Positions 26,928 to 41,194 of a stretch of 64,000 nucleotides of DNA are shown here, piece by piece. Under the pieces are notes generated by a model, which saw only the letters and a list, made by a program, of their open reading frames with translations, searched no databases and had not been told where the DNA came from. The position numbers were made by a program, and so were the translations under genes. Where the stretch lies: assembly GCA_938084575.1 (NCBI GenBank), contig CALKFG010000005.1:248001-312000 (forward strand), in the 5' to 3' direction. Position 1 is the first letter of the stretch. Every line of letters begins with the position of its first letter. This DNA comes from an uncultured Hyphomonadaceae bacterium (lineage in GTDB: Bacteria; Pseudomonadota; Alphaproteobacteria; Caulobacterales; Hyphomonadaceae).

Positions 26928-29414
26928 CTAGCAGGCCGGGCGGGGGGCTGCGTCGGCCTGAAAGCCAGCTGAATGTATGGTCAGCTCGGTTGCGTCCTCG
27001 GCGTCCAGCCGCAGGGCTTCCGTCACGGCGGACGGGTCGAGGCCCTGCGCGATGAAGCAGGCGACCGGAATGGAGACGTCCGTCCAGTCGGAGCCGGGGA
27101 TTGGTGTTTCGAACCGGGCTGCGTCAAGCTCTGCCGCGCACCCGTCGCCGCAGGCCATGCGGACCGGCCATGACGCGTCTTCCGACCGGTCACGTCGCCA
27201 GACAATCGACAGGGCGAGCGTGGCGGGGTCCCCGACAATGTTCAGGTCCAGCGGGCGGGTGCTGCGCAGGCTGAAATGGGCCGGACCGGAGCCCGACCAT
27301 GACAGCAGCTTCGAGTCTTCCTGCGCTTTATAGTCAACGCCGGCAATCGAAAGGCCATTGCCAAGGCTGGTGGCGCTCATGGTTGTGACCGGGATGTTGG
27401 CGTTGGACGAATCGCCGATGAACATGGCGAACGGTCCGGCAGGCGCCCCGCGCTGAATGATCTGACCGGCGAACTGCTGGCTGGTGTCGGCAACCATGGG
27501 GTCTTCCGACAGCGCCGCCATGGCCGGTGGCGTCTGCGCATAGGACAGGCCAAAGCCATAGGGGAACAGGACACCGGGATCGTCGGCCGCGTTGATCGGT
27601 TCTCCCCGGCCGTCGGCTGGCCAGGAGAAGGACAGGCGACCGGTGAAGTCGTGCCGGGCTTGTCCGTCCTGGCCGGCAACAAGCACGTCGGCCACACCGG
27701 CGCCTTCCGTCCCGGGCAGCCAGGCCACGACGAAGGCGTCGGACGCGTTGATGTGAAGGTTGCTCCACAGGGGACGGCCGGTCAGGAACACCGAGACAAC
27801 CGGGATGTTCTGTGCCTTGAGGGCCTTGATGCGCTGCAGGTTCTCACCGGTCTCGAATTCAAAAACCAGGTCTGAGCGGTCCCCGAAGAACTCCGCATAG
27901 GGCTGCTCTCCATAGACCACGATGGCAACATCCGGGACCGTGTCGGTTTGGCCGTCGGGCGACAGGATCGCGGTTCCGCCGGCCGCTTCAATGGCGGCTT
28001 TGAGGCCGCTGAACAGGGTTTCGCCATTGGCAAATTCGTCATTGGCATTGCCCGTGCCCTGCCAGTTCAGCGTCCAGCCCCCGGTTTGCTGCTGCATCGA
28101 GTCAGCCCCGCTGCCGGTGATCAGGACGGTCTGGCCGGGAGCAACGGGCAGCAGTCCGTCGGTATTCTTCAGCAGGACGAGGGATTCCCGCACCGCCTGT
28201 CGGGCGATGGCGCGATGGGCGTCCTGGCCAAGAAGGGTGACGTCGGTGGTGGCGCGGTCGGAAGGCCGCCCGGCATCGAGCAGACCTGAGCGGATCTTGG
28301 CCTTGAGAATTCTCAGAACGGCTTCGTCCACCCGCTGCATGTCGAGCTCGCCGGCATTGGCGTCTTCAAGCAGGGCCGCGTACAGGCCCCTCCAGCTGTC
28401 GGGCGCCATGTACATGTCGACCCCGGCATAAAGCGCCGCCGGGCAGTCCGTGGCGGTGCAGTTGGGGACTTCGGCGTGGCCGTTCCAGTCGCCGACCACG
28501 AAGCCCTCAAAGCCCATCTCGTCGCGCAGCACATCGCGCAGGAAGAAAGAGGACCCGTGCATTTTCTCGCCATTGACCGACGAGAAGGACGCCATCACGC
28601 TCTGGACGTCGGCGGCAATGGCGGGGCCGTAGCCTGCGCCGTGAATGGCCACGATCTCCTCGATCGTGCCCAGCGTGTCGCCCTTGTCGATGCCCAGCTG
28701 CGTGCCGCCGTCGGCAATAAAGTGCTTGGCCGTGGCCATGACATTTTCGCCGACCAGGAAGTCGTCATCGCCGGGCCGCCCCTGCAGGCCTTCGATAATC
28801 GCCGCGGCATAGGCGGCGACAAGGTCGGGATTTTCGGAATAGCTTTCATAGGCGCGTCCCCAGCGGTCGTCGCGGGCGACGGCAAGGGTCGGCGCGAAGG
28901 TCCAGTCGAGGCCTGTGGCCCGGATCTCGCGCGCGGTGACATCGCCGATCTGGCGCATCAGGTCGGCATTGTGCGCGGCACCCAGGCCGATATTGTGCGG
29001 GAAGATGGTCGCAGTCTGCAGGTTGTTGTGGCCATGCACCGCGTCGGTTCCCCACAGAAGGGGGACGCCGACGCCACCATCGGTTGTGTCTGTCGAGGCC
29101 TCCCAGAACGCGTCGGCCAGCTCAACCCAGGCCTGCGGGTCTGCGGTCTTGCCGCCGCCAGGCGCGGAGTTGCCGCCATTCAGGACCGAGCCGATATGGT
29201 AGGTCCGCGCTTCGTCTGGCGTGATCGCCGAAATGTCGGCCTGAAGGATCTGGCCGATTTTCTCCTCGACGCTCATCGCCGCCCGAATCGCTTCGGCCCG
29301 GAGCGTGACCGGGTCTGCTCCGTGGGCGGGCTCACTTGAGCAGGAGGCCAGCAGGGTGATCCCCGAAAAGATCCCCAAGGCCATCATATTAAATCGTTTT
29401 TTTCCGCCCAACAT
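26928..29414 (-). CDS. Glycoside hydrolase family 3 beta-glucosidase lipoprotein
   Basis: 828 residues from ATG 29414. GGKKRFNMMALGIF leads into lipobox ITLLASC (Cys25), so it is probably a membrane-anchored periplasmic lipoprotein; the open frame reaches 29474 without a good signal. GH3 features: the KHFIADGG loop, the catalytic nucleophile Asp309 in GFVVGDWNGH, a C-terminal alpha/beta sandwich (GLLPVAPGQTVLITGSGAD) and a final carbohydrate-binding-like domain. This is the ExoP/CelD-like subgroup, which cleaves beta-1,3/1,4-gluco-oligosaccharides from the non-reducing end. It is divergent from the LacI gene and has a putative LacI operator in its promoter; it pairs functionally with the GH16 lipoprotein nearby. 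Confidence 0.9.
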   Translation of the reverse strand: MLGGKKRFNMMALGIFSGITLLASCSSEPAHGADPVTLRAEAIRAAMSVEEKIGQILQADISAITPDEARTYHIGSVLNGGNSAPGGGKTADPQAWVELADAFWEASTDTTDGGVGVPLLWGTDAVHGHNNLQTATIFPHNIGLGAAHNADLMRQIGDVTAREIRATGLDWTFAPTLAVARDDRWGRAYESYSENPDLVAAYAAAIIEGLQGRPGDDDFLVGENVMATAKHFIADGGTQLGIDKGDTLGTIEEIVAIHGAGYGPAIAADVQSVMASFSSVNGEKMHGSSFFLRDVLRDEMGFEGFVVGDWNGHAEVPNCTATDCPAALYAGVDMYMAPDSWRGLYAALLEDANAGELDMQRVDEAVLRILKAKIRSGLLDAGRPSDRATTDVTLLGQDAHRAIARQAVRESLVLLKNTDGLLPVAPGQTVLITGSGADSMQQQTGGWTLNWQGTGNANDEFANGETLFSGLKAAIEAAGGTAILSPDGQTDTVPDVAIVVYGEQPYAEFFGDRSDLVFEFETGENLQRIKALKAQNIPVVSVFLTGRPLWSNLHINASDAFVVAWLPGTEGAGVADVLVAGQDGQARHDFTGRLSFSWPADGRGEPINAADDPGVLFPYGFGLSYAQTPPAMAALSEDPMVADTSQQFAGQIIQRGAPAGPFAMFIGDSSNANIPVTTMSATSLGNGLSIAGVDYKAQEDSKLLSWSGSGPAHFSLRSTRPLDLNIVGDPATLALSIVWRRDRSEDASWPVRMACGDGCAAELDAARFETPIPGSDWTDVSIPVACFIAQGLDPSAVTEALRLDAEDATELTIHSAGFQADAAPRPAC

Positions 29415-29478
29415 CGCCGTCTGGATCCCTCTTAAAATTAAAATAGTGTCGTTCTTGACGACGTTTTTCGGCACGTTA

Positions 29479-29496
29479 TTGTCCAGTAAAGGACAA
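29479..29496. promoter_or_regulatory. Putative LacI-family operator at the GH3 promoter
   Basis: TTGTCC-AGTAAA-GGACAA is a perfect 6-bp inverted repeat with a 6-base spacer. On the minus strand it fills the 17-base gap between a -35-like TTGACT (complement of 29497-29502) and a weak -10-like ATAACG, so bound protein would block the GH3 promoter. A related partial palindrome, TTTTGTCCGGAAAT, lies at 29508-29521. The same motif occurs upstream of TBDR 3. Confidence 0.6.
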
Positions 29497-29586
29497 AGTC
29501 AATCCAGTTTTGTCCGGAAATTTGTCTTCCCCGGGTCGGGTGGTGCGCCTGCCCGCCGTCCGGGGGCGTTGGGAACGGGACTTCTA

Positions 29587-30609
29587 ATGACGACCATCAC
29601 TCAAGTCGCAAAACGGGCCGGGGTTTCGACCAAAACCGTGTCCCGGGTGATGAGCAATTACCCCCATATCAGCAGCAAGACGCGGCTCAAGGTCGAAGAG
29701 GCCATTCAGGAGCTGACCTTTGCGCCCGTCTCGGTTGCGCGGCATCTGCGCCTGACAGAGCCACTCAGCATCGGCATGCTGTATGGAGACCCCAGTAGTG
29801 GTTATCAGGCGCGCCTCAACCATGCCGTGCTGAAGGCGTGTTCCGATGCCCGGCGGTATCTCGCAGTTGAGCTTTTTGACGAGGCCGGAACCGACTGGGT
29901 GCGGCAGGTCGAGATGTTTCTGGACCGCACACATGTCCGCAAAATGATCCTGGTGCCGCCACTTTGCGATTCGACGGAGGTCCATCAGTTGCTTGATGAC
30001 AGGGGCGTCAGCTACGTGCTGATCTCCCCGTCCCGGGCGGTTCTGGGCTCGGTCGCCATAACTATGGATGATCGCCTGGCATCAAAAGAGATTACGGAGC
30101 ATTTGCTCGCCCTCGGTCACCGCCGGATCGGTCATATAAGTGGGCATCCCGACCATGTGGTGACCCTGTTGCGCCGGCAGGGTTTTGAAGAGGCCATGGC
30201 CCGGGCCGGCCTCGCCAATCCGGCGCACATGTTTGTCGAATCCGGCCGCTTCCAGTTCCGTGAAAGTCTTGTCTCTGCGGAAAAACTTCTGTCTGCGCCA
30301 CGCCTTCCCACGGCGATTTTCGCAGCAAATGACGAAATGGCATCAGCGGTCGTCATGGCCGCCAACCGTCAGGGCCTGCGGGTCCCGGACGACCTGTCGG
30401 TCGCCGGATTTGATGATTCGCCGATTGCCAGCGCGATGTGGCCAGACCTGACCACAGTGAGCCAGCCTTTTGAGGCGATTGGCCGGAGCGCCATCGAAAC
30501 GCTGGCCGACACGTCCGGCGGCCCGGGGGGCGCGTCGCAAATGATTGTCTTGCCGCACCGGCTGATTATGCGGGCCTCGACAGGGCCGGCCAGAACGGAC
30601 CTGTCCTGA
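29587..30609 (+). CDS. LacI-family transcriptional repressor of the glucan locus
   Basis: 340 residues from ATG 29587 (the open frame begins at 29305 inside the divergent GH3 gene). The N-terminal LacI helix-turn-helix is TITQVAKRAGVSTKTVSRVM, followed by the hinge helix and a periplasmic-binding-protein-like sensor domain (IGMLYGDPSS, HRRIGHISGHP, PTAIFAANDEMA, LSVAGFDDSPIASAMWPDLT). Such proteins usually repress sugar-use genes until an oligosaccharide binds. It lies between GH3 and TBDR 3, and both have matching TTGTCC-type inverted repeats upstream, which makes it the likely controller of the whole locus. The effector sugar is inferred to be a beta-gluco-oligosaccharide. Confidence 0.9.
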   Translation: MTTITQVAKRAGVSTKTVSRVMSNYPHISSKTRLKVEEAIQELTFAPVSVARHLRLTEPLSIGMLYGDPSSGYQARLNHAVLKACSDARRYLAVELFDEAGTDWVRQVEMFLDRTHVRKMILVPPLCDSTEVHQLLDDRGVSYVLISPSRAVLGSVAITMDDRLASKEITEHLLALGHRRIGHISGHPDHVVTLLRRQGFEEAMARAGLANPAHMFVESGRFQFRESLVSAEKLLSAPRLPTAIFAANDEMASAVVMAANRQGLRVPDDLSVAGFDDSPIASAMWPDLTTVSQPFEAIGRSAIETLADTSGGPGGASQMIVLPHRLIMRASTGPARTDLS

Positions 30610-30682: not shown

Positions 30683-30722
30683 TTGTCCTACATCGGACTT
30701 TTAAATTGACAATATCGGACAA
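30683..30722. promoter_or_regulatory. Two putative LacI operators around the TBDR 3 promoter
   Basis: Site A is TTGTCC-TACATC-GGACTT (30683-30700), the same 18-bp layout as the GH3 site with one arm mismatch. Site B is TTGACA-ATATC-GGACAA (30706-30722), with a 5-base spacer, and its left arm is itself a consensus -35 box (TTGACA 30706-30711). A repressor here would occlude RNA polymerase. The -10 box is weak (around 30729). Confidence 0.55.
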
Positions 30723-30805
30723 TGGCGAATGGTGCGACCGTTGACCTTCCCCTGCGGGGCGGGTTCATCGGCCTGTTGGCCGAAAAGATAAACGGAGGAG
30801 ACACT

Positions 30806-33772
30806 ATGAGTTTGTACAAGCCGCATAAGTTTGCGCAATTGATGCTGGGCGCATCGGTTCTGGTGATGTCAGGTGTGGCTTCTGCTGCTCTTGCTCAGGA
30901 CGCAGACGAAGACGAAGAAGAAATTCAAATCCAGGATACCGTCATTGTCGAGGGGATCCGGGGCTCACTGATGAGCTCAATGGCGCTGAAGCGCGATTCT
31001 GCGGGTGTGGTTGATTCGATCACCGCTGAGGACATGGGCAAGTTCCCGGATTCCAACCTTGCTGAATCCCTGCAGCGGATTTCGGGCGTGTCGGTTGACC
31101 GGTCGCTCGGCGAAGGCTCATCGGTCACGGTCCGCGGCTTTGGTCAGGACTTTAACCTGGTCACTTTTAACGGCCGCATGATGCCGACCTCGACGCTGGG
31201 CGATGGCGCGAGCGCGCCGTCAACGCGGAATTTTGATTTCGGTAATCTGGCGTCGGAAGCGATTGCCTCGGTCGAAGTCTACAAGACCAGCAAGGCATCC
31301 GTGGCCACCGGCGGCATTGGCGCAACGATCAACATCAAGACCACCAAGCCGCTTGAGGCTGCCGGCCGCATCGCGACCGTTGGTGTCAAGATGGTCAGCG
31401 ATGACAGCCAGATCCGTGGCAGCGACATCACACCGGAAATCTCTGGCCTGTACAGCGACAAATTCCTGAATGACCGTCTGGGCGTCGCAGTTTCCGGGTC
31501 TTACCAGGAACGTAAGGGCGGTGTCACGCAGGCGAATGTCGGCTGGCGTGATGGTCTGCTCGGCAGCGAGGGCGGCTGGGGTCAGCTTCCCGCCGCGGAT
31601 GCCTGGAACTGGGGTCCGGAGCAGGGGGGTGGAAACCGCCCTGGCGACACAGACGTTTACGAAGTCCCGCAGAATGCCGACTACGAACTGACGGATTTCA
31701 CCCGGAAGCGGACCAATGGTCAGATCACACTGCAATATGATTTTACCGAGACCCTTCGTGGTACGGCGGACTACACCTATTCGCAGCAGCAGGTCGAAGT
31801 TCAGAAATCCACAGCCGGCATCTGGTTCAACCATGATGCGACGGTAAGCTTGTGGACAGACGGCCCCGTTGCGGGTCCTGAATTCTATAAGGAATTCGTG
31901 GGCAACTCTGACCTGTCTTATTCCGGGTCACTGGCGGCCAATGAATCCGAGAACAAGTCGTTTGGCTTGAACCTCGAATGGGATGCGACCGAGCGTCTGA
32001 GCCTGGCTTTTGACTGGCATGACTCTTCAGCGGAATCCAAGCCTGGCAACAAGTTCGGGTCGAGCATGTCTGTCGGTACCGCCGTGCTTTCGATTGCCGA
32101 TCAGACGATCGACTTCAGGGGCGACCTGCCGGTGATCAGTGTCACCCAGAACGGAGATCTGCCGGGCCTGTTCGAGGCGTCCTCGATCATCGGCACGGGC
32201 AGCTCCTTCCGGAATGCCTATGTCAAGGATGACCTGTCACAAGCCCGCATCTTCGGTTCTTATGATTTTGACCACAGCCTGATCGACAGTGTTGATTTCG
32301 GTGTTGGCGTGATCCGCAATGAGTACAAGTCGAAGTACGGCTTTATCCAGACCGACTCATGGGGCGGCCTCGGAACGCCGGACGATTATCCGGATGACCT
32401 GTTCTCGTTCATGACTCTGCCCGATAAGTTTGACGGCATCTCCGGTTCGGACAATCCGAACATGCTGCCAGGCCTCTACGAGTTCGACGTTGCACGCCTG
32501 GTTGACCTGATGGAGTCACAGTACGGGATCTGTTCGTCGCCATGGACGGGGTCTTCAATCCCCGGCACCTGCCTGGCAAATCAGAACACCGACGATGTCT
32601 ACCGGGAAAACACGCTCAGCCTGTTTGCTCAGTATAACAATCAGTTCGAGCTCTTCGGTCGCGATGCGAACCTGACGGCCGGTCTGCGGTATGAGGAAAC
32701 AGATGTGACCTCGAAATCGCTTCAGCCAAACCCCGTGGGGACGGCCTGGACCGGCTTCACCGAGATCGGTGTGAATTTCGACGGACAGGACTTCCTGACA
32801 GTTGACGGAAGTTACAATTATGTTCTGCCGTCGATCGACTTCGACTTCCAGCCTTTGGATTATGTGAAGGTCAGGGCGTCTTACAGCGAGACGATCGCCC
32901 GCCCGGCTTACAATAACCTGCGGGCCAGCCTCAACCTTCAGCCGCCCTTCCGGCCGGATGAAGCTCGGGCGTCACAGGGCAATCCAAGCCTTGAGCCTTA
33001 CGAGTCTGAGAACTTCGACCTGTCGGCGGAATGGTACTATGCCGATGACAGCTATGTGTCCCTGGGCTACTTCACCAAGGATGTCAGCAACTTCATCGGA
33101 ACCAGCGAGTTTGATCAGACGTTCCCGGGCCTGACCAACCCTGCGCGGGGGCCGCGTTACGACGCCGCCGTAGCGGCCCTGGGCGGTGAAGCTGATCTCG
33201 GAGAGATCCGCGATTACATCATCGAGAACTTCCCAACCACGGTGGAGGGTACCAACATTCTGGGTCAGCCAGACGATCCGGCCTTCCAGATCAGAACCTC
33301 GATACCGTTCAATAATGAAGACCTGCTCAAATATGAAGGTCTGGAGTTTGCCGTACAGCATATTTTCGGCGACACCGGCTTTGGCGGGATCATCAACTAC
33401 ACCGTCGCCTTCGATAATGGTGGCTATGACAACACCCAGTCGGGCTACAACCCGCAATTTGTTGTCACCGGCTGGAGCGACAGTGCGAACGTCATCGCGT
33501 TCTATGAGAAGGATGCCTTCCAGGCCCGTCTGGCCTATAACTGGCGTGAAATGTTCCTGGCTGGCGACGGACCCAACCCGTTCTATATACAGGACTATGG
33601 TCAGTTGGATGCCAGCGCGAGCTATGAATTTGACAATGGCGTCAGCGTCTTTGTCGAGGGCATCAACATCGCTGCCGAGAACCGTCGTGGTCATCGCCGG
33701 CACCCGAACAATGTCTTCTTCATGCTTAAAGGCGAAGCGCGCTACGCCGTTGGTGCGCGCTACAAATTCTAG
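30806..33772 (+). CDS. TonB-dependent receptor 3 (glucan-locus, TIGR01782-like)
   Basis: 988 residues from ATG 30806, which follows GGAGGAG at 30794-30800; the open frame starts at 30722. Signal peptide with a LMLGASVLVMSGVASAALAQ core. The mature N terminus and plug (TVIVEGIRGSLMSSMALKR, AEDMGKFPDSNLAESLQRI, GVSVDR) are the hallmark of the Xanthomonas/Caulobacter TonB-receptor family that often imports plant- or algae-derived oligosaccharides. The barrel ends in ARYKF. It is the first gene of the operon with GH16, halogenases, SapC, cupin and symporter, so it probably imports a beta-glucan fragment across the outer membrane. Expression is presumably LacI-controlled. Confidence 0.93.
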   Translation: MSLYKPHKFAQLMLGASVLVMSGVASAALAQDADEDEEEIQIQDTVIVEGIRGSLMSSMALKRDSAGVVDSITAEDMGKFPDSNLAESLQRISGVSVDRSLGEGSSVTVRGFGQDFNLVTFNGRMMPTSTLGDGASAPSTRNFDFGNLASEAIASVEVYKTSKASVATGGIGATINIKTTKPLEAAGRIATVGVKMVSDDSQIRGSDITPEISGLYSDKFLNDRLGVAVSGSYQERKGGVTQANVGWRDGLLGSEGGWGQLPAADAWNWGPEQGGGNRPGDTDVYEVPQNADYELTDFTRKRTNGQITLQYDFTETLRGTADYTYSQQQVEVQKSTAGIWFNHDATVSLWTDGPVAGPEFYKEFVGNSDLSYSGSLAANESENKSFGLNLEWDATERLSLAFDWHDSSAESKPGNKFGSSMSVGTAVLSIADQTIDFRGDLPVISVTQNGDLPGLFEASSIIGTGSSFRNAYVKDDLSQARIFGSYDFDHSLIDSVDFGVGVIRNEYKSKYGFIQTDSWGGLGTPDDYPDDLFSFMTLPDKFDGISGSDNPNMLPGLYEFDVARLVDLMESQYGICSSPWTGSSIPGTCLANQNTDDVYRENTLSLFAQYNNQFELFGRDANLTAGLRYEETDVTSKSLQPNPVGTAWTGFTEIGVNFDGQDFLTVDGSYNYVLPSIDFDFQPLDYVKVRASYSETIARPAYNNLRASLNLQPPFRPDEARASQGNPSLEPYESENFDLSAEWYYADDSYVSLGYFTKDVSNFIGTSEFDQTFPGLTNPARGPRYDAAVAALGGEADLGEIRDYIIENFPTTVEGTNILGQPDDPAFQIRTSIPFNNEDLLKYEGLEFAVQHIFGDTGFGGIINYTVAFDNGGYDNTQSGYNPQFVVTGWSDSANVIAFYEKDAFQARLAYNWREMFLAGDGPNPFYIQDYGQLDASASYEFDNGVSVFVEGINIAAENRRGHRRHPNNVFFMLKGEARYAVGARYKF

Positions 33773-33798: not shown

Positions 33799-33835
33799 GC
33801 TACCCCCGCCTTGCGCGGGGGTAGCTCTTCTTTTT
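33799..33835 (+). terminator. Strong hairpin between TBDR 3 and the GH16 gene
   Basis: GCTACCCCCGC (33799-33809) pairs perfectly with GCGGGGGTAGC (33815-33825) around a 5-base loop, followed by TCTTCTTTTT. This is a good intrinsic terminator, yet the GH16 start is only 12 bases beyond and no separate promoter is evident. It may act as a partial terminator that lowers expression of the downstream genes relative to the receptor, or stabilise the receptor mRNA. Confidence 0.85.
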
Positions 33836-33846
33836 GTGGGGTCCAC

Positions 33847-34857
33847 ATGAACGTTTCCCGGTATCTGTCATCTGTCGTGCTTGTCCTGCTGATGGTGGCC
33901 TGCGCCAGCACCCCAGCCTCCGTTCTGCCGGTTCCCGACCGGCCGCCGGCCGGACCCGATCCCCTGCCGGCCGACCGCGGCTGGACGCTGGTCTGGGCCG
34001 ATGAGTTCGATGGCCGTGACCTGGATTTTTCCAAATGGGAGATTGAAGAGGCATGCTGGGGCGGCGGCAATGATGAGCGCCAGTGTTATACCAGGCGGCT
34101 TGAGAACGTCGAAGTGGTCAATGGGGTCCTGCGCCTGAAGGCGTTTCGGGAGACGGTGACAGGGCCGCAATACCCGCAGGGCTATCCGAAAGGACGGGGC
34201 GACCAGATCACGCGAAAATATACGTCGGGAAAGGTGCGCACGCTGAACAAAGCCGACTGGACCTATGGCCGGTTCTCCGCCCGTATGAAATTGCCAAAGG
34301 GGCAGGGGACGTGGCCGGCTTTCTGGATGCTGCCCGCCGAAAATGCCTATGGGCCCTGGGCCACCTCGGGCGAGATTGACATTATGGAAGCCGTCAATCT
34401 GGGGGAACGCTGCGCGGACTGCGCCGGGGATGAGGGCGAAAACCGCACATCGGGCGCCCTCCATTTCGGTGGGGAATGGCCGCAGAATGACTATCGCGTC
34501 GATTATCACCCTTTGCCGGGTGGTCCCGACGCGGTTGAAGAATATCACGTTTTTTCGGTCGAATGGGGCGAGGGGCTGATCCATTGGTTCATTGATGATG
34601 AGCTGTTTTACACCCTCACGGCGGAGGACTGGTACAGCGCCACGGTCGGCAAGGAGTCCGGCACCGCCGCGCCCTTTGATAAGTCATTTTACCTCATGTT
34701 AAATCTCGCCGTTGGCGGTAAATTATCTGAGACAAACAATAAAACGGGCTTTGATCCCGCCAGCTTCCCCTCGGAGGTTCTGGTGGACTGGGTCCGGGTG
34801 TATCAGTGTGGACCTGATCCGTTGACCGGTCGGGCCTGCATGCAGGAACCGGAGTGA
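33847..34857 (+). CDS. Glycoside hydrolase family 16 beta-glucanase lipoprotein (laminarinase-like)
   Basis: 336 residues from ATG 33847. The lipoprotein signal ends in LLMVACAS, so the enzyme is probably anchored in a membrane facing the periplasm or outside. The GH16 jelly-roll fold is shown by LVWADEFDGRDLDFSKWE, YTSGKVRT, WPAFWMLP and the catalytic segment SGEIDIMEAVN with Glu176 (nucleophile), Asp178 and Glu181 (acid/base). The methionine between Asp178 and Glu181 (DIME, the beta-bulge form) is typical of laminarinases, which cut beta-1,3 or mixed-linkage glucans. With the GH3 exo-enzyme upstream this suggests laminarin use. A GTGGGG site precedes the start; the next gene begins 20 bases after its stop. 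Confidence 0.9.
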   Translation: MNVSRYLSSVVLVLLMVACASTPASVLPVPDRPPAGPDPLPADRGWTLVWADEFDGRDLDFSKWEIEEACWGGGNDERQCYTRRLENVEVVNGVLRLKAFRETVTGPQYPQGYPKGRGDQITRKYTSGKVRTLNKADWTYGRFSARMKLPKGQGTWPAFWMLPAENAYGPWATSGEIDIMEAVNLGERCADCAGDEGENRTSGALHFGGEWPQNDYRVDYHPLPGGPDAVEEYHVFSVEWGEGLIHWFIDDELFYTLTAEDWYSATVGKESGTAAPFDKSFYLMLNLAVGGKLSETNNKTGFDPASFPSEVLVDWVRVYQCGPDPLTGRACMQEPE

Positions 34858-34877: not shown

Positions 34878-36410
34878 ATGGATCACAGGGTTGAACATAT
34901 CGTTGTGGTTGGAGGCGGAACGGCGGGCTGGATTACGGCTTGCGTCCTGGCGGCGCGCCATCCGGACCGCAGCGATAAGGGCGTTCGCATTTCCCTGATC
35001 GAGTCACCGGACATTCCCACCATCGGTGTTGGGGAAGGAACCTGGCCGACCATCCGCCAGACATTGTCCCGGATCGGGATCAGGGAGGCCGACTTCCTCC
35101 AGACCTGCCGGGCGTCGTTCAAGCAGGGGTCAAGGTTCAACAAATGGGTCACGGGCGAGGCCGACGATTCCTACGTCCACCCCTTCGAGCTGCCGGTGTC
35201 ACAAAATGGCAGCGCGCTGCTGCAGGCCTGGAAGAGCCTGGCGCCCGACAAGCCATTTGCCGAGGCGGTGTGCGTGCAGTCTGCCCCTGAGCTTGAGGGG
35301 ATTGCGCCGCGTCAGCGGGCAATGCCGGATTATGCCGGGGCGATGAATTACGCCTATCACCTCGATGCCGGAAAGCTGGTTGACCTGCTGCGGGACCATG
35401 CGCTGTCGGCCCTGGGCGTGCAGCGAATAGAAGACAATGTGGTTGAGGTGATCGGTGCGCCGGACGGGGATATTGAGGCGGTGCGCTGTGACCGGACGGG
35501 CCCTGTCACCGGCGATCTTTTCATCGACTGTACCGGGCGGCGGTCGCTTCTTCTGGGCACACATTATGATGTTGCCTTTATCGACAGGAGCGACGTCCTG
35601 TTCAACAACCGGGCGATTGTCACACACGTGCCTGTCGGTCCGGAGTCGCGCATCGTTTCGGAGACTGTGTCGACGGCGCATGAGGCCGGCTGGATCTGGG
35701 ATATCGGGCTGACAAACCGGCGTGGCGTTGGCTGTGTCTATGCCTCTGACTATATCGACGATGACCGTGCGGGGCATCTGCTGCGGACCTATTTGGGGGA
35801 TGTTGAGCATACGCCTCTGCGCCAGATTTCATTCCAGTCGGGGCACCGGGAGCATTTCTGGCACCGGAATTGTGTCGCCGTCGGCCTGGCGGCCGGCTTC
35901 CTCGAGCCGCTTGAGGCCTCTGCCATCGTCCTGCTGGAATTGTCGGCTGAGATGATCGCCGAGACCCTGCCGGCTTCCCGGCAGGCGATGGACATTGAGG
36001 CCCGCAACTTTAACCGGATCTTCCTGTACCGGTGGGCGCGGATCATCGACTTCCTCAAGCTGCATTATGTTCTCAGCCAGCGGCCAGAGCCTTACTGGCA
36101 GGCCAATCGCGATCCCAAGACGATCCCGCAGCGCCTGCAGGATTATCTTGAGGTCTGGAAGACCCGGCCGCCCAGCGCGTATGATTTCGATCAGGCGCGT
36201 GAAGTGTTTCCGGTCGCGAGCTATTTGTTCGTGGCCTATGGTATGGGTATGATGCCGACCACGCATCCGACACTGGATCCGCGGGTTCAGGACACGCTGA
36301 AGACTGAGATGCAGAAAATGCTTCGGAAGCGCCGGAGCCTCGCGGCTGGTCTGCCGACCAATCGTGCCTTGCTCGGTGGCTGTGCTGTCGCCTCAACCGT
36401 TTCCTTGTGA
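34878..36410 (+). CDS. Flavin-dependent (tryptophan) halogenase homologue, divergent copy
   Basis: 510 residues. The FAD-binding GGGTAGW motif (12-18) and the lysine of the halogenase active site (Lys82 in ASFKQGSRF) are present, as is the Glu of FLEPLEAS (Glu346). However, the WxWxIP motif that typifies these enzymes reads WIWDIG (272-277), and the Ser following Glu346 in characterised tryptophan halogenases is Ala here. It may therefore have altered or lost halogenation. It needs a flavin reductase, not present in the window. It lies 20 bases after GH16 and 10 bases before sapC, inside a sugar-uptake operon; such homologues are common next to TBDR genes with no proven role. Confidence 0.85.
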   Translation: MDHRVEHIVVVGGGTAGWITACVLAARHPDRSDKGVRISLIESPDIPTIGVGEGTWPTIRQTLSRIGIREADFLQTCRASFKQGSRFNKWVTGEADDSYVHPFELPVSQNGSALLQAWKSLAPDKPFAEAVCVQSAPELEGIAPRQRAMPDYAGAMNYAYHLDAGKLVDLLRDHALSALGVQRIEDNVVEVIGAPDGDIEAVRCDRTGPVTGDLFIDCTGRRSLLLGTHYDVAFIDRSDVLFNNRAIVTHVPVGPESRIVSETVSTAHEAGWIWDIGLTNRRGVGCVYASDYIDDDRAGHLLRTYLGDVEHTPLRQISFQSGHREHFWHRNCVAVGLAAGFLEPLEASAIVLLELSAEMIAETLPASRQAMDIEARNFNRIFLYRWARIIDFLKLHYVLSQRPEPYWQANRDPKTIPQRLQDYLEVWKTRPPSAYDFDQAREVFPVASYLFVAYGMGMMPTTHPTLDPRVQDTLKTEMQKMLRKRRSLAAGLPTNRALLGGCAVASTVSL

Positions 36411-36420
36411 AAGGCTCGTC

Positions 36421-37140
36421 ATGTCCCAACTCGTCGCTGTAAACCCGCTTGATCATAAATCTGTTCGAATTCTCGACCAACGCTCCGAAGCCATGGGCGA
36501 TGGCGTGATGATCTGCGTATCGTTTCCGGAAGAATTCCGGAAGCTGCAGGCCCATTACCCGATTCTTTTCCAGCTCAGCCCGGACCGCGATCGGTTCAAC
36601 TGCGTTGCCCTTTTTGGCTTTGAACAGGGTGAAAACCTGTTCCTGCAAAATGATAAATGGGACGCGGGCTATATTCCGCTCGCCATGGATGTTCATCCTT
36701 TCCTGATCGGAATGCCGGAAACCGAGGGCGAGAACCGGAAAGTGGTGCTTGATCTGGAGCATCCCCGGGTCTCCGAGGGCGAAGGCCAGCGCATCTTCGA
36801 CGAGAATGGCATGGCAACGACATATCTGGAGAATATCTCCACCAAGCTTGATTATCTCGACAAGGCTTACCGGAATTCGGCAGATTATCTGGCAACCCTT
36901 CAAAGGTACGACCTGCTCGAGTCGCTTGCCATTGATGTGACACTGTCGGACGGGTCACAAAACCGGCTGGTAAACTTCCATACCATTCACGAAGAGAAGC
37001 TGGCCGAACTGGATGAAAGTGCGCTGATCGACCTGCACAAGCGGGGCTATCTGATGCCAACTTATATGGCGCTTGCATCGCTTTCCAACCTGTCTGCCCT
37101 GATCCAGAGAAAAGACGCGATTTCGATCCATGACCTCTGA
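36421..37140 (+). CDS. SapC-family protein
   Basis: 239 residues from ATG 36421. It starts like SapC proteins (SQLVAVNPLDHKSVRIL) and contains ARVCV-type strand VMICVSFPEEFRKLQAHYPI, the FNCVALFGFEQGENLF segment and WDAGYIPLAMDVHPFLIG. SapC was named for a protein linked to S-layer export in Campylobacter, but in alphaproteobacteria and xanthomonads it recurs beside TBDRs, cupin-like proteins and tryptophan-halogenase homologues, and its function there is unknown. No signal peptide. The C-terminal part overlaps the cupin gene by 11 bases, implying translational coupling. Confidence 0.88.
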   Translation: MSQLVAVNPLDHKSVRILDQRSEAMGDGVMICVSFPEEFRKLQAHYPILFQLSPDRDRFNCVALFGFEQGENLFLQNDKWDAGYIPLAMDVHPFLIGMPETEGENRKVVLDLEHPRVSEGEGQRIFDENGMATTYLENISTKLDYLDKAYRNSADYLATLQRYDLLESLAIDVTLSDGSQNRLVNFHTIHEEKLAELDESALIDLHKRGYLMPTYMALASLSNLSALIQRKDAISIHDL

Positions 37141-38158
37141 GGCCGATATCTTCTCAGGCATTCCCCCCCTTCCGGAGTATACGGCTTCGACGCTGGAGGC
37201 GCTGCGCCCCTTGATGGCGGACAACCGGCCCTTCATCATTCGCGGGCTGGTGAAAGACTGGCCGCTGGTTCAGAGCGGGTTGGAGTCGGGGAGAGCGGCT
37301 CGCGACTATCTTCAGAGCAAAGCCCGTCCGATCAAATTCGTTGCGAGCGTGGGGCCGCCAGAGAGCAAAGGACGGTTGTTCTATCAGGACGACATGTCGA
37401 TGAATTTCCGCATCGGCAAAGCGGATCTCTCCGAGATATTTGGTCAGATCGACCAGGTTGAGACTCTGGCGGATCAGCCGGTCATCTATATGAGCTCCGT
37501 CAATATGAAGCTGTTTTTTGACGGCCTCCGGGAAGAAAATCAGATTGGATTCGACACTGAGGATGTTCTGGAGTCGATCTGGATTGGCACGCGGACTCGC
37601 GTGGCTGCCCATAATGATTTCCCCTCCAATATTGCCTGTGTTGCAGTCGGGCGCAGGCGGTTCACGGTGTTCCCGCCGGACCAGTTCCGCAATCTCTATA
37701 TTGGGCCGATCGACAACACGCCGGCCGGTCGCGCTGTCAGCCTTGTCGACTTTCATGCGCCGGACTTTGCCACATTTCCGAAATTTGAAGCGGCGTTGGA
37801 GCATGCCAGGGTCGCAACACTGGACCCAGGTGATGCGATCTTCATTCCATCCATGTGGTGGCATCATGTGGAAGGCCTGTCGCCTTTCAATGTCTTGGTC
37901 AATTACTGGTGGCGGGAAACCCCGCGCTATCTGGGCAGCCCGCAAAACGCCTTGAACCATGCCATGCTGGCCATTCGTGATTTGCCAGAGCACGAACGGG
38001 CTCACTGGCGCGAGATGTTCGACTATTATGTCTTCGAGGGGGGTGAAGGCGCCACCGACCGAATTCCCGAGCATGGTCGTGGTGTTCTGGGTCCGTTGAC
38101 GGCTGAGGCCGCGGGCCGGCTTCGCGGCTTCCTTATTAAAACACTAAGCAACGAGTAG
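37130..38158 (+). CDS. Cupin-like / JmjC-type Fe(II)-2OG oxygenase-family protein
   Basis: 342 residues. It is a Cupin_8/JmjC-like protein. RPFIIRGLVKDWPL near the N terminus is the typical entry. RVAAHNDFPSNIACVAVGRRRFTVFPP carries a His-x-Asp metal pair and the substrate strand, and LDPGDAIFIPSMWWHHVEGL carries the distal His. These residues are consistent with Fe(II) and 2-oxoglutarate binding, so a hydroxylase activity on a protein or small molecule is plausible, not proven. It overlaps sapC by 11 bases and is followed 3 bases later by the second halogenase gene. Confidence 0.88.
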   Translation: MTSEADIFSGIPPLPEYTASTLEALRPLMADNRPFIIRGLVKDWPLVQSGLESGRAARDYLQSKARPIKFVASVGPPESKGRLFYQDDMSMNFRIGKADLSEIFGQIDQVETLADQPVIYMSSVNMKLFFDGLREENQIGFDTEDVLESIWIGTRTRVAAHNDFPSNIACVAVGRRRFTVFPPDQFRNLYIGPIDNTPAGRAVSLVDFHAPDFATFPKFEAALEHARVATLDPGDAIFIPSMWWHHVEGLSPFNVLVNYWWRETPRYLGSPQNALNHAMLAIRDLPEHERAHWREMFDYYVFEGGEGATDRIPEHGRGVLGPLTAEAAGRLRGFLIKTLSNE

Positions 38159-38161
38159 GTT

Positions 38162-39658
38162 ATGATGGCTCCGAGAAAAATCCGAAATTATGTCATTGCC
38201 GGCGGCGGAACAGCAGGCTGGATGGCGGCTGCAATGTTGGCGAAGGTCATGGGAAACGAGATCTCGGTGACCCTCGTGGAGTCCGAGGAGATCGGGACTG
38301 TGGGCGTGGGGGAAGCCACCATCCCACCATTGCTGCGCTATAATCAGCTTGTCGGAATCGATGAAGCTGAGTTCATGCGCCGCACCCGGGCGACGTTCAA
38401 GCTTGGCATCATGTTCGAGAATTGGAAGGATGTTGACCAGGATTACTTCCATTCTTTCGGGCATACGGGACGCGATCACTGGACCGGCGGCTTCCATCAT
38501 TTCTGGATGTGCGGTCAGAAACGCGGCATGGCCGGCTCCTTTGACGATTACTGTCTCGAAGTCGTGGCGGCGGCCCAGAATAAATTTGCTCAATTGCCGA
38601 ATAACGGTCTGAATTATGCCTATCATCTCGACTCCAGCCGGTTTGCCGGTTTCCTGCGCGAGATCGCGGAAGAAAATGGCGCCAAGCGCCATGAAGGGAA
38701 GATTGTCGACGTCAATCTCTGCCCGGAAAGCGGGAATATTGCTTCTCTGAGCCTTGATTCTGATCAGCTGATCGAAGGCGACTTCTTCATTGACTGTACC
38801 GGCTTCCGGTCCCTGCTCATGGGACAGGCCCTGCATGTCGGGTATGATGACTGGAGCCATTACCTGCCGTGTGACCGGGCCATTGCGGTTCAAACCAAAT
38901 CGGTTGGTCCGCCCCGCCCCTATACCCGCGCGATCGCGCATGATGCCGGGTGGCGGTGGCAGATCCCGCTGCAGCACAGAACAGGTAACGGTCTGGTCTA
39001 TTGCAGCCGGTATCTGGACGATGAACAGGCACTGGACCGGATCCTTGATCTCATCGATGGCGAGGCGATTACCGAGCCGCGTCACATCCGGTTCCAGACA
39101 GGCGCCCGGCGGAAGCAATGGGAAAAGAACTGCATGGCTCTGGGGCTTGCCGCGGGCTTTATGGAGCCGCTCGAGTCGACCTCGATCCACCTGATCCAGA
39201 AGTCGATCATCAGGTTCCTGACCTTGCTGCCACAAGATGATCTCAACGCCGTCGACATGAAGGAGTTCAATGATCAGACCTTCGACGACATGCTGGGCAT
39301 CCGGGATTTCCTGATCCTGCATTATTATGTGACTGAGCGGCGGGACAGTGAATTCTGGCGCTATTGTGGACAGATGGATATTCCTGACAGTCTCCGCCAG
39401 AAAGTGGACATGTTCCGCAAATCCGGACGTATCTTCCGGAAAAATGGTGAGCTCTTCGCTGAAAATTCCTGGGTCCAGGTGATGATGGGCCAGGGGTTGA
39501 TGCCACAATCCTATCATCCCATCGCCGACAAGATGAGTGATGACGAGCTGACCTATTTCCTTGGGCAGATTAAGCGCGATGTCGAGAAAACGGCGGCACG
39601 GCTGCCCGCCCATGAGGAATTCGTGAAGAGTTATTGCGGAGTTGGCGATCAGCTCTAA
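38162..39658 (+). CDS. Flavin-dependent tryptophan halogenase homologue, canonical motifs
   Basis: 498 residues. All expected motifs are present: GGGTAGW (14-20), VGVGEATIP, the active-site lysine (Lys80 in ATFKLGIMF), WRWQIP (264-269) and EPLESTS with Glu338 and Ser339. This fits a working FADH2-dependent halogenase of the PrnA/RebH/BrvH type. In marine alphaproteobacteria the TBDR-linked relatives are reported to prefer bromide and indole-like substrates in vitro, with the natural substrate unknown. The location inside a glucan-uptake operon does not suggest tryptophan chemistry. ATG 38165 is an equivalent start. Confidence 0.9.
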   Translation: MMAPRKIRNYVIAGGGTAGWMAAAMLAKVMGNEISVTLVESEEIGTVGVGEATIPPLLRYNQLVGIDEAEFMRRTRATFKLGIMFENWKDVDQDYFHSFGHTGRDHWTGGFHHFWMCGQKRGMAGSFDDYCLEVVAAAQNKFAQLPNNGLNYAYHLDSSRFAGFLREIAEENGAKRHEGKIVDVNLCPESGNIASLSLDSDQLIEGDFFIDCTGFRSLLMGQALHVGYDDWSHYLPCDRAIAVQTKSVGPPRPYTRAIAHDAGWRWQIPLQHRTGNGLVYCSRYLDDEQALDRILDLIDGEAITEPRHIRFQTGARRKQWEKNCMALGLAAGFMEPLESTSIHLIQKSIIRFLTLLPQDDLNAVDMKEFNDQTFDDMLGIRDFLILHYYVTERRDSEFWRYCGQMDIPDSLRQKVDMFRKSGRIFRKNGELFAENSWVQVMMGQGLMPQSYHPIADKMSDDELTYFLGQIKRDVEKTAARLPAHEEFVKSYCGVGDQL

Positions 39659-39664
39659 GCACCG

Positions 39665-41194
39665 ATGAGCGGACTCGATGTCTTTATTCTCTTTGCCATT
39701 ATGGCCGTGCTGCTTGGCATCGGCCTGTCTGGCCGGGCTACGGGGGGCTCAACCGAGGAATTTTTCCTGGCCGGGCAGAGGCTGAGATGGTGGCAGATCG
39801 GGTTTTCCCTGTTTGCGTCCAACTTCTCGGCATCCGCCATTATCGGCCTGACGGGTGCGGCCTATCTGACGGGAATCGCAATCTATAATTATGAATGGGT
39901 TGGCATTCTGGCGATCTTGTTCTTCGCCTTTGTGTTGGCCCGGTCGGTGCGCCATGGCGGCTTCTATTCGATTGCCCAGTTTCTCGAGGAACGGTTTGGG
40001 ACGCGGATAAAAGTCATTTATTCGGCCCTGGTTCTGTTCCTTCTGATCTTTATCGACATGGCAGGCGCCCTGTATGCGGGGGGCGTGCTTCTGAGAGAGG
40101 TCTTTCCGGGTCTGTCGATCAATTTCATCATTTTGATCATCATGATCATGGCCGGAACCTATTCTGTTTCCGGTGGCCTGGGGGCGATCACGCGGATTGA
40201 TTTCTTTCAGTCCCTGATTCTGATCGGCGGCGCTTTTCTGGTGGCGTATTACACTTTCAGCGCGGCAGGGGGCTGGACGGTGGTCCGACAGATCGCGCCG
40301 GAGGGCTTCCTGTCCCTTGTCCGGCCCGAGGATGATCGGGCTGTGCCATGGACGGGTCTCGTCACTGGTGTGCCGATATTGTGCTGTTATTTCTGGCTGG
40401 CCAATCAGAACATGGTGCAGTGGGTGTTGTCTGCGCGATCGGTCCGGGATGCGCGGATTGGCCTGATGATGGCCGGTTATCTGAAATTGCTGGTTCTGTT
40501 TATCATTGTCCTGCCCGGCGTGGCGGCGATCGGTCTGTTCCCCAATTTGACCGAGCCCGACAGGATCTATCCAACGCTTCTGTTTGAATTGTTACCGGCG
40601 GGTGTGCTCGGGCTTGTCCTCGCCGGCTTTGTGTCCGCGATCATGTCGAGCGCCGATTCCATTCTGCATGCCTCTTCAACCATCATCACAATGGATTTCG
40701 TCAAGAAAATGCGCCCGCATTTGGGCCATGCGGAGTTGGTCAGGATGGGCCGGCTCACCACGATAGGAGTGATCTTACTGGGGGCCTTGTGGGCCCCCGC
40801 CATCGGCCGGTTCGGAACCCTTTTCGAATATGTGCAGGGGTTGCTGTCCTATGCTGTGGCGCCCTTCGTGGTGGTTTACCTGGCCGGCTGGTTCTGGCCC
40901 AGGGCCAGCGCCAACGGAGCCCTGCTGGCCCTTCTGATTGGTTTTTCCAGCACGCTTATGGTGGCGGCCGGGACGGCGCTTGGCCGGTTCGATCTGCACT
41001 ACCTCCATGTACCGCTTCCGATTGCGCTGCTCAGCCTTGTCGGCCTGGTTTGCGGCAGCCTGCTCTGGCCCCGACAGGCTTTGGCCGGCGGCCCGGCTTT
41101 TGACGGGGTGGATCACACCACGCAGAACTCGGACATGCTGATCGGCGCCGTTCTGCTGGGTCTGGTCGGGGCTCAGGTTGTCTGGTTCTGGTAA
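39665..41194 (+). CDS. SGLT-like sodium/sugar symporter
   Basis: 509-residue inner-membrane SSS transporter with about 13-14 hydrophobic segments. ATGGSTEEFFLAGQRLRWWQIG, ANFSASAIIGLTGAAY and WLANQNMVQWVLSARSVRDARIG resemble bacterial Na+/galactose- and glucose-type symporters more than PutP. SAIMSSADSILHASSTI carries Na+-site residues. It closes the glucan operon, 6 bases after the second halogenase, and probably imports glucose or small gluco-oligosaccharides from the periplasm. Its last 22 bases overlap the 3' end of the convergent LysR gene. Confidence 0.88.
   Translation: MSGLDVFILFAIMAVLLGIGLSGRATGGSTEEFFLAGQRLRWWQIGFSLFASNFSASAIIGLTGAAYLTGIAIYNYEWVGILAILFFAFVLARSVRHGGFYSIAQFLEERFGTRIKVIYSALVLFLLIFIDMAGALYAGGVLLREVFPGLSINFIILIIMIMAGTYSVSGGLGAITRIDFFQSLILIGGAFLVAYYTFSAAGGWTVVRQIAPEGFLSLVRPEDDRAVPWTGLVTGVPILCCYFWLANQNMVQWVLSARSVRDARIGLMMAGYLKLLVLFIIVLPGVAAIGLFPNLTEPDRIYPTLLFELLPAGVLGLVLAGFVSAIMSSADSILHASSTIITMDFVKKMRPHLGHAELVRMGRLTTIGVILLGALWAPAIGRFGTLFEYVQGLLSYAVAPFVVVYLAGWFWPRASANGALLALLIGFSSTLMVAAGTALGRFDLHYLHVPLPIALLSLVGLVCGSLLWPRQALAGGPAFDGVDHTTQNSDMLIGAVLLGLVGAQVVWFW

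Follow-up and report, generated by a model that had tools for sequence, protein, structure and literature searches.

Why should a locus for sugar uptake carry two flavin-dependent halogenase genes, one of which has lost part of a motif by which such enzymes are found? The question is raised by a 64,000-nucleotide stretch of DNA (the window) from an uncultured Hyphomonadaceae bacterium (contig CALKFG010000005.1, positions 248,001 to 312,000), in which open reading frame (ORF) calls and profile scans reveal a same-strand run of genes for a TonB-dependent receptor, a glycoside hydrolase of family GH16, a first halogenase-fold enzyme (HalA), a SapC family protein, a Cupin_8 protein, a second halogenase (HalB) and a sodium:solute symporter. 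An earlier note on this DNA had placed two halogenase genes in one such run, which the ORFs bear out, and had offered three readings of the first: a member of a complex of active and regulatory subunits, a monooxygenase, or an enzyme with another substrate. The motif at issue, WxWxIP, helps to mine halogenases from genomes (PMC12645471; PMC5945002), and a 2023 review describes the role of its single residues as unclear (PMC10696468). Our analysis makes it reasonably likely that both HalA and HalB function as flavoenzymes, from different old subfamilies, in one receptor-linked tailoring cassette.

Results

Two halogenase-fold proteins with intact catalytic residues

HalA and HalB are the only PF04820 matches in their own genome at E 0.001, scoring 395.2 and 621.9 bits respectively against a curated cut-off of 21, and they are 32% identical to one another. 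All the residues that the earlier note had named in the two copies are correct. HalB has K80, the motif in its canonical form (W264-R-W-Q-I-P269) and E338 followed by S339 within EPLES. HalA has K82, W272-I-W-D-I-G277, E346 and A347, such that both Trp residues and the Ile of WxWxIP are retained and the Pro is the sole replaced one of the four named letters. Roles for the catalytic Lys and Glu in tryptophan halogenases are cited in PMC5945002.

HalA and HalB are not direct neighbours. Between them lie SapC, separated from HalA by 10 bases, and Cupin_8, which overlaps SapC by 11 bases and ends 3 bases ahead of HalB; the symporter gene starts 6 bases past HalB. All intergenic gaps from receptor to symporter are below 40 bases as called, or below 80 if GH16 begins at an inner ATG. 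A gene for a precursor like those of ribosomally synthesised and post-translationally modified peptides was considered inside the operon and ruled out, as gaps of this size leave no space for one.

The altered motif is fixed across a clade

We searched the HalA protein against 41, 385 and 398 genomes (overlapping sets) and fetched 60 stretches around matches at E 1e-85 or better, with one HalA-like place (G682:C51) omitted; these stretches and the window together held 91 halogenase ORFs. The halogenase tree was built without the motif columns, by a quick search with support from the Shimodaira–Hasegawa-like approximate likelihood ratio test (SH-aLRT) alone. Within it, the 48 enzymes with WxWDI and either EPLEA or EPLESS form one group (SH-aLRT 98), which is nested among other WxWDI enzymes that retain EPLEST (here WDI-EST enzymes), and the 24 WxWxIP enzymes, which we call HalB, are split off by one branch (SH-aLRT 100). 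The HalA sample of 48 covers relatives within the 1e-85 cut. One enzyme with the HalA motif and EPLEATG (L073) falls outside the clade and was excluded, and one of the 48 (the second gene of L094) is truncated by the end of its stretch.

Throughout this clade the three glycines of the flavin adenine dinucleotide (FAD) motif (G12, G14 and G17), K82, W272, W274 and E346 never vary. At the sixth motif position 40 enzymes have Gly, 6 have Ala, 1 has Asp and 1 has Ser, and the Ala after the catalytic Glu (A347) is present in 46. Conservation of the WIWDIG form across orthologues, which the earlier note had proposed to check, is thus clade-wide, and the random return of WxWxIP that it would have taken as a sign of drift was looked for without a single case, Pro occurring in 0 of the 48. 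Other residues near the motifs are similarly constant: G54 and Q83 are found in every member, and position 56 is Trp in 41 and Val in 7. Among the WDI-EST enzymes, the neighbours of HalA in the tree, the sixth position is Pro in 4 of 15 and is therefore variable outside the clade. In all 81 HalA-type genes at named loci (the best 80 of at least 578 loci), WxWDI is followed by G, A or D, a count that is no independent test of the motif, the pattern search behind it having contained WDI. Judged by these sequences, the HalA form is not a product of chance but is fixed across the sampled clade, and HalA belongs to an enzyme subfamily that is old and separate, rather than being a decayed copy. The HalB enzymes are conserved in their own right, with GxGxxG and the catalytic Lys and Glu invariant in all 24 and the WxWxIP Pro present in 23.

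Solved relatives of HalA and HalB

The closest solved chains to HalA are 9ltb_A (562.6 bits), 2pyx (453 bits) and 9lu2 (395 bits), which come from Altererythrobacter sp. S1-5, Shewanella frigidimarina (a tryptophan halogenase) and Pseudoalteromonas sp. L11-2 respectively. In the printed alignments all three are HalA-like, with WLWDIA, WIWDIG and WIWDIA followed by EPLEAS, EPLEAS and EPLEAT; they are linked to HalA by alignment and structure match, the halogenase tree having been made without them. The HalA model (predicted local distance difference test score, pLDDT, 90.8) matches 9ltb with Z 51.8 and a root-mean-square deviation of 1.2 over 470 residues, and the three chains as a set with Z 49.8 to 51.8. 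We found no function for any of them: our literature search gave no paper for 9ltb or 9lu2, and 2pyx is cited as unpublished work of the Joint Center for Structural Genomics (PMC7336383).

PrnA, RebH, Thal and PyrH resemble HalA in fold (Z 42 to 47), FAD motif and catalytic Lys and Glu, but they carry the Trp4 substrate-lid motif of enzymes acting on free tryptophan (groups A and B of PMC8269204), which HalA and HalB lack. Trp4 patterns that recover four of the motif strings printed in that paper itself found the motif in 0 of 48 HalA and 0 of 24 HalB enzymes. MibH (Z 40.9) and VirX1 (Z 37.7) match the HalA model less well than the free-substrate halogenases do. The three solved chains closest to HalB are Xcc4156 (6y1w, 662 bits), 9luq and BrvH (6frl). 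BrvH and Xcc4156 are flavin-dependent halogenases (FDHs) outside the free-tryptophan groups, and are relatives of HalB that share about 32-33% identity with the HalA model. The BrvH gene, like HalB, has a second FDH gene upstream (PMC5945002).

HalA travels with outer-membrane receptors

A TonB-dependent receptor lies within 4 kb of 47 of the 48 HalA genes, upstream on the same strand in 44. Within the same distance SapC accompanies 44 of them, HalB 21 and Cupin_8 20; near the 15 related WDI-EST enzymes we found none of the four. By these gene neighbourhoods, the HalA subfamily accompanies outer-membrane receptors for sugar uptake in many proteobacteria. Of the 29 genomes with a HalA-clade gene, all have SapC and 27 have a HalB-like match at 1e-110, the other two (G713 and G727) having HalA and SapC without one. 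The order receptor-HalA-SapC-Cupin_8-HalB recurs in 48 of the 80 named loci, and among these best 80 of at least 578 the records with the ordered cassette include Hellea, Croceibacterium, Sphingomonas, Colwellia, Massilia, Duganella and Lysobacter.

The genes of the cassette also share a history. Mirror-tree correlations at the 20 loci with all four genes were 0.90 for HalB-receptor, 0.81 for HalB-SapC, 0.59 for HalA-SapC, 0.51 to 0.53 for HalA-HalB and 0.46 for HalA-receptor, none of which was equalled in 999 permutations. HalA distances therefore track those of HalB no better than those of SapC. Such values show co-inheritance and not contact, with no special sign of a HalA-HalB bond.

Other arrangements of halogenase genes were also seen. 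Two tandem HalA-type genes adjoin SapC at L107:8409-11542 in G727. A third halogenase type, with WAWQID or WAWEID and EPLESTGL, stands beside HalA and SapC at three loci of N-acetylglucosamine type (L111:7336-8886, L113:10464-12014 and L120:7352-8884). Several genus-mates (G001, G003, G006, G009, G022 and others) have multiple halogenase genes per genome, often adjoining, and by score no HalA; the genes read in G001, G006, G009 and G022 are of HalB type, 14 of 37 loci having passed the frame filter.

The cassette follows the receptor and not the sugar

Enzyme families at the loci were defined by clustering, with one representative per family profile-scanned. Of the 22 loci with HalB, 14 have a gene of family GH3, GH16 or GH1. 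The 25 HalA loci without HalB instead show GH20 at 7, GH36 at 5 and GH3/16/1 at 1 (L088), and the GH20 loci additionally hold SIS, amidohydrolase and BadF-kinase families. The cassette follows the receptor rather than the sugar, in that the sugar varies while receptor, HalA and mostly SapC persist.

We aligned 46 HalA-linked receptors and found Trp at residue 547 of the window receptor in 21 of 21 HalB-linked sequences versus 2 of 25 others; of six unlinked receptors intended as background, one (L138) gave a usable reading frame. A second receptor alignment has several HalB-linked rows without Trp in this column, and in the receptor tree the HalB-linked receptors (except L078) are grouped in one part. 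Because the second alignment loses the Trp column and the HalB-linked receptors group together, we claim no receptor modification site.

Partner proteins and neighbouring genes

FIH and JMJD5 are JmjC protein hydroxylases. The Cupin_8 protein, which is bacterial, resembles them in sequence and in its HxD...H iron triad: over residues 152-274 it matches FIH chains at E-values down to 3.9e-19, and H161, D163 and H245 are invariant in 20 of 20 aligned copies. A DUF6445 protein is found at 9 of 61 loci, and at 6 of these it immediately follows HalB. Its nine copies have PHFD...HYL...LHS...RLT in common, a pattern that resembles the signature of 2-oxoglutarate Fe(II) oxygenases, and a sequence search returned no solved relative at E 1. 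The AlphaFold model of SapC (pLDDT 95.8) has no fold match of note in the PDB, where the best Foldseek hit has E 0.11 and VIA-align gives a Z of at least 2 for none of 995, which is no proof of a new fold. It has no match among viral models at E 0.001, and a sequence search gave no solved relative either (lowest E 0.18). The same genome has another SapC gene at G000:C3:209608-210276, on a contig without any PF04820 match.

The features of the locus are collected in Table 1. Three of the starts probably or possibly differ from those listed. The LacI domain begins only at residue 97 of its longest ORF, so the true start is probably downstream; the receptor is likely to start at the ATG at 30806, ahead of a signal-peptide-like stretch; and the true start of GH16 may be the inner ATG at 33847.

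Table 1. Genes of the halogenase locus and its surroundings in the window, with DUF6445 genes of related loci
Feature	Coordinates	Strand	Profile evidence
GH3 beta-glucosidase-like gene, divergent neighbour	26928..29474	-	PF00933 2.9e-78, PF01915 7.2e-26
LacI-type regulator, longest ORF	29305..30609	+	PF00356 4.9e-16, PF13377 1.8e-41
TonB-dependent receptor	30722..33772	+	TIGR01782 592 bits; PF00593, PF07715
GH16 family beta-glucanase-like enzyme	33811..34857	+	PF00722 8.8e-17
HalA, WxWDIG/EPLEA subfamily flavin-dependent halogenase-fold enzyme	34878..36410	+	PF04820 5.2e-118
SapC family protein	36421..37140	+	PF07277 1.7e-60
Cupin_8 / FIH-like JmjC 2-oxoglutarate oxygenase	37130..38158	+	PF13621 1.1e-67
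HalB, canonical WxWxIP halogenase of BrvH / Xcc4156 kind	38162..39658	+	PF04820 9.3e-187
Sodium:solute symporter, final gene of same-strand run	39665..41194	+	PF00474 4.6e-61
DUF6445 protein	L090:7380-8111; also L091, L092, L099, L102, L103, L105, L115, L117		PF20043 (one copy scanned)

Discussion

The presence and order of the genes, the conservation of their catalytic residues, the clade structure and the linkage to receptors are the observations on which any account of this cassette must build. If HalA and HalB are both working enzymes, each would be expected from its family to take reduced FAD from a reductase and to react with O2 to form a peroxyflavin, and hypohalite would then be handed to the substrate via Lys82 and Glu346 in HalA or Lys80 and Glu338 in HalB. 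SapC is the near-constant partner of HalA, and the FIH-like oxygenase together with HalB may form an added second half that is present at many loci of beta-glucan type. The suggestion of the earlier note that HalA has another substrate is supported by its separate clade, its own fixed residues near the motifs and its intact catalytic residues. A substrate or site unlike that of HalB is indicated by the fixed differences at G54, Q83 and A347, together with the Trp or Val at position 56, since a pocket of its own would imply a substrate or site of its own.

What might the two enzymes act upon? The open site of BrvH, the adjoining FIH-like oxygenase and the lack of space for a precursor gene all point to a large target, and the receptor system is a more likely one than the sugar because receptor linkage persists while the sugar changes. 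HalA and HalB therefore probably tailor a large shared target, which might be the receptor protein while not yet exported, or else a shared aromatic ligand or helper; modification of the receptor protein itself is a guess. We put forward only tentatively, as one doubtful possibility among several, the idea that the cassette serves the post-translational tailoring of outer-membrane glycan receptors, or of a partner protein, before export. HalA would then work alongside SapC, and HalB alongside the FIH-like hydroxylase (at some loci also a DUF6445 oxygenase), and aromatic or other side chains would be halogenated or hydroxylated. To our knowledge, no halogenated outer-membrane receptor has been described.

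Several points weigh against the picture of two working enzymes with a receptor-linked target. The Fx.Px.Sx.G halogenase motif (Gkotsi et al., as cited in PMC7336383) is matched by 15 of 15 WDI-EST enzymes, 2 of 24 HalB and 1 of 48 HalA, which are without its Ser and Gly; the active enzyme BrvH likewise has Ser replacing the Gly (PMC7336383). It is conservation that suggests a working HalA, and our literature search gave no report of HalA-type activity or of what enzymes of the subfamily modify. The correlation of HalA with the receptor is the lowest of the tested pairs and tells against a tight bond between them. The linkage to receptors can reflect sugar-driven shared regulation instead of a shared target. 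Of the 25 HalA loci without HalB, 12 show none of GH20, GH36 or GH3/16/1. Finally, our alignments of the 46 HalA-linked receptors yielded no candidate modification site.

Among other explanations, it is possible, but in our view rather unlikely, that HalA is a flavin monooxygenase, in which loss of the Pro and the changed Ser after the Glu would open the flavin site and allow the peroxyflavin to hydroxylate directly. A role in preventing hydroxylation has been proposed for WxWxIP (PMC10696468), and QhpG, a distant homologue by profile that dihydroxylates peptidyl Trp, is a precedent for this fold modifying Trp within a protein (PMC7876137). However, HalA matches the QhpG profile (NF049967) weakly, its 34.7 bits (8.9e-9) being far below the cut-off of 240 and nearly equalled by the 32.2 bits of HalB, and both motif Trp residues are kept in all 48 HalA enzymes along with the Lys and Glu of hypohalite chemistry. 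We would likewise give a low probability to a cassette for making or modifying a small halogenated aromatic compound that serves as a signal or antibiotic tied to sugar uptake. BrvH and the metagenomic relatives MHal2 to MHal4 do halogenate free indole (PMC5945002; PMC8269204), but bromination of indole by BrvH, which has an open site, is slow, and its authors doubt that indole is the natural substrate (PMC5945002). Moreover, there is no further biosynthetic gene between receptor and symporter, and the presence of an FIH-like oxygenase next to HalB points to a protein as the substrate.

The proposal that active and regulatory subunits are paired here, with HalA as a catalytically weak or silent partner in an obligate complex with HalB, fares worse, and we consider it improbable. 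It can draw on the presence of both genes in one run, on the proximity of HalB to 21 of the 48 HalA genes, on the HalB-like match somewhere in 27 of 29 HalA genomes and on the correlated HalA and HalB distances. Against this stand the invariant catalytic residues of HalA, the two HalA genomes without a HalB-like match, such that the pair is not always together, the four genus-mates with HalB-type genes and by score no HalA, and the fact that HalB tracks the receptor far better than it tracks HalA, which is itself no closer to HalB than to SapC. Simple drift, with HalA a duplicated copy that is losing function, could explain why HalA shares 76% identity with its G007 orthologue and HalB 91%, but we reject it, and a pseudogene with it, as extremely improbable because the HalA clade spans many genera with its motif fixed, its catalytic residues kept in 48 of 48 and the Pro never regained.

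Among the papers listed in our literature search, none had a title or abstract opening that describes the cassette, but the search covered few subscription papers and an earlier description is quite possible; a word search of PMC2996990 and PMC1790865 found no mention of a halogenase or of SapC. On the evidence of sequence and gene order, HalA appears to represent a halogenase subfamily within a widespread cassette. Two halogenases, an FIH-like oxygenase and SapC occur together in sugar-uptake loci of a recurrent type, and we found no role for them in the literature searched. The 48 sampled members of the HalA clade, in which the Pro of WxWxIP alone has been lost, often beside a WxWxIP enzyme, amount to a natural experiment on the motif. 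Naming the target of the cassette would account for many 'tryptophan halogenase' annotations and, if the tailoring of receptors or their partners is true, such modification would tune sugar capture or surface chemistry.

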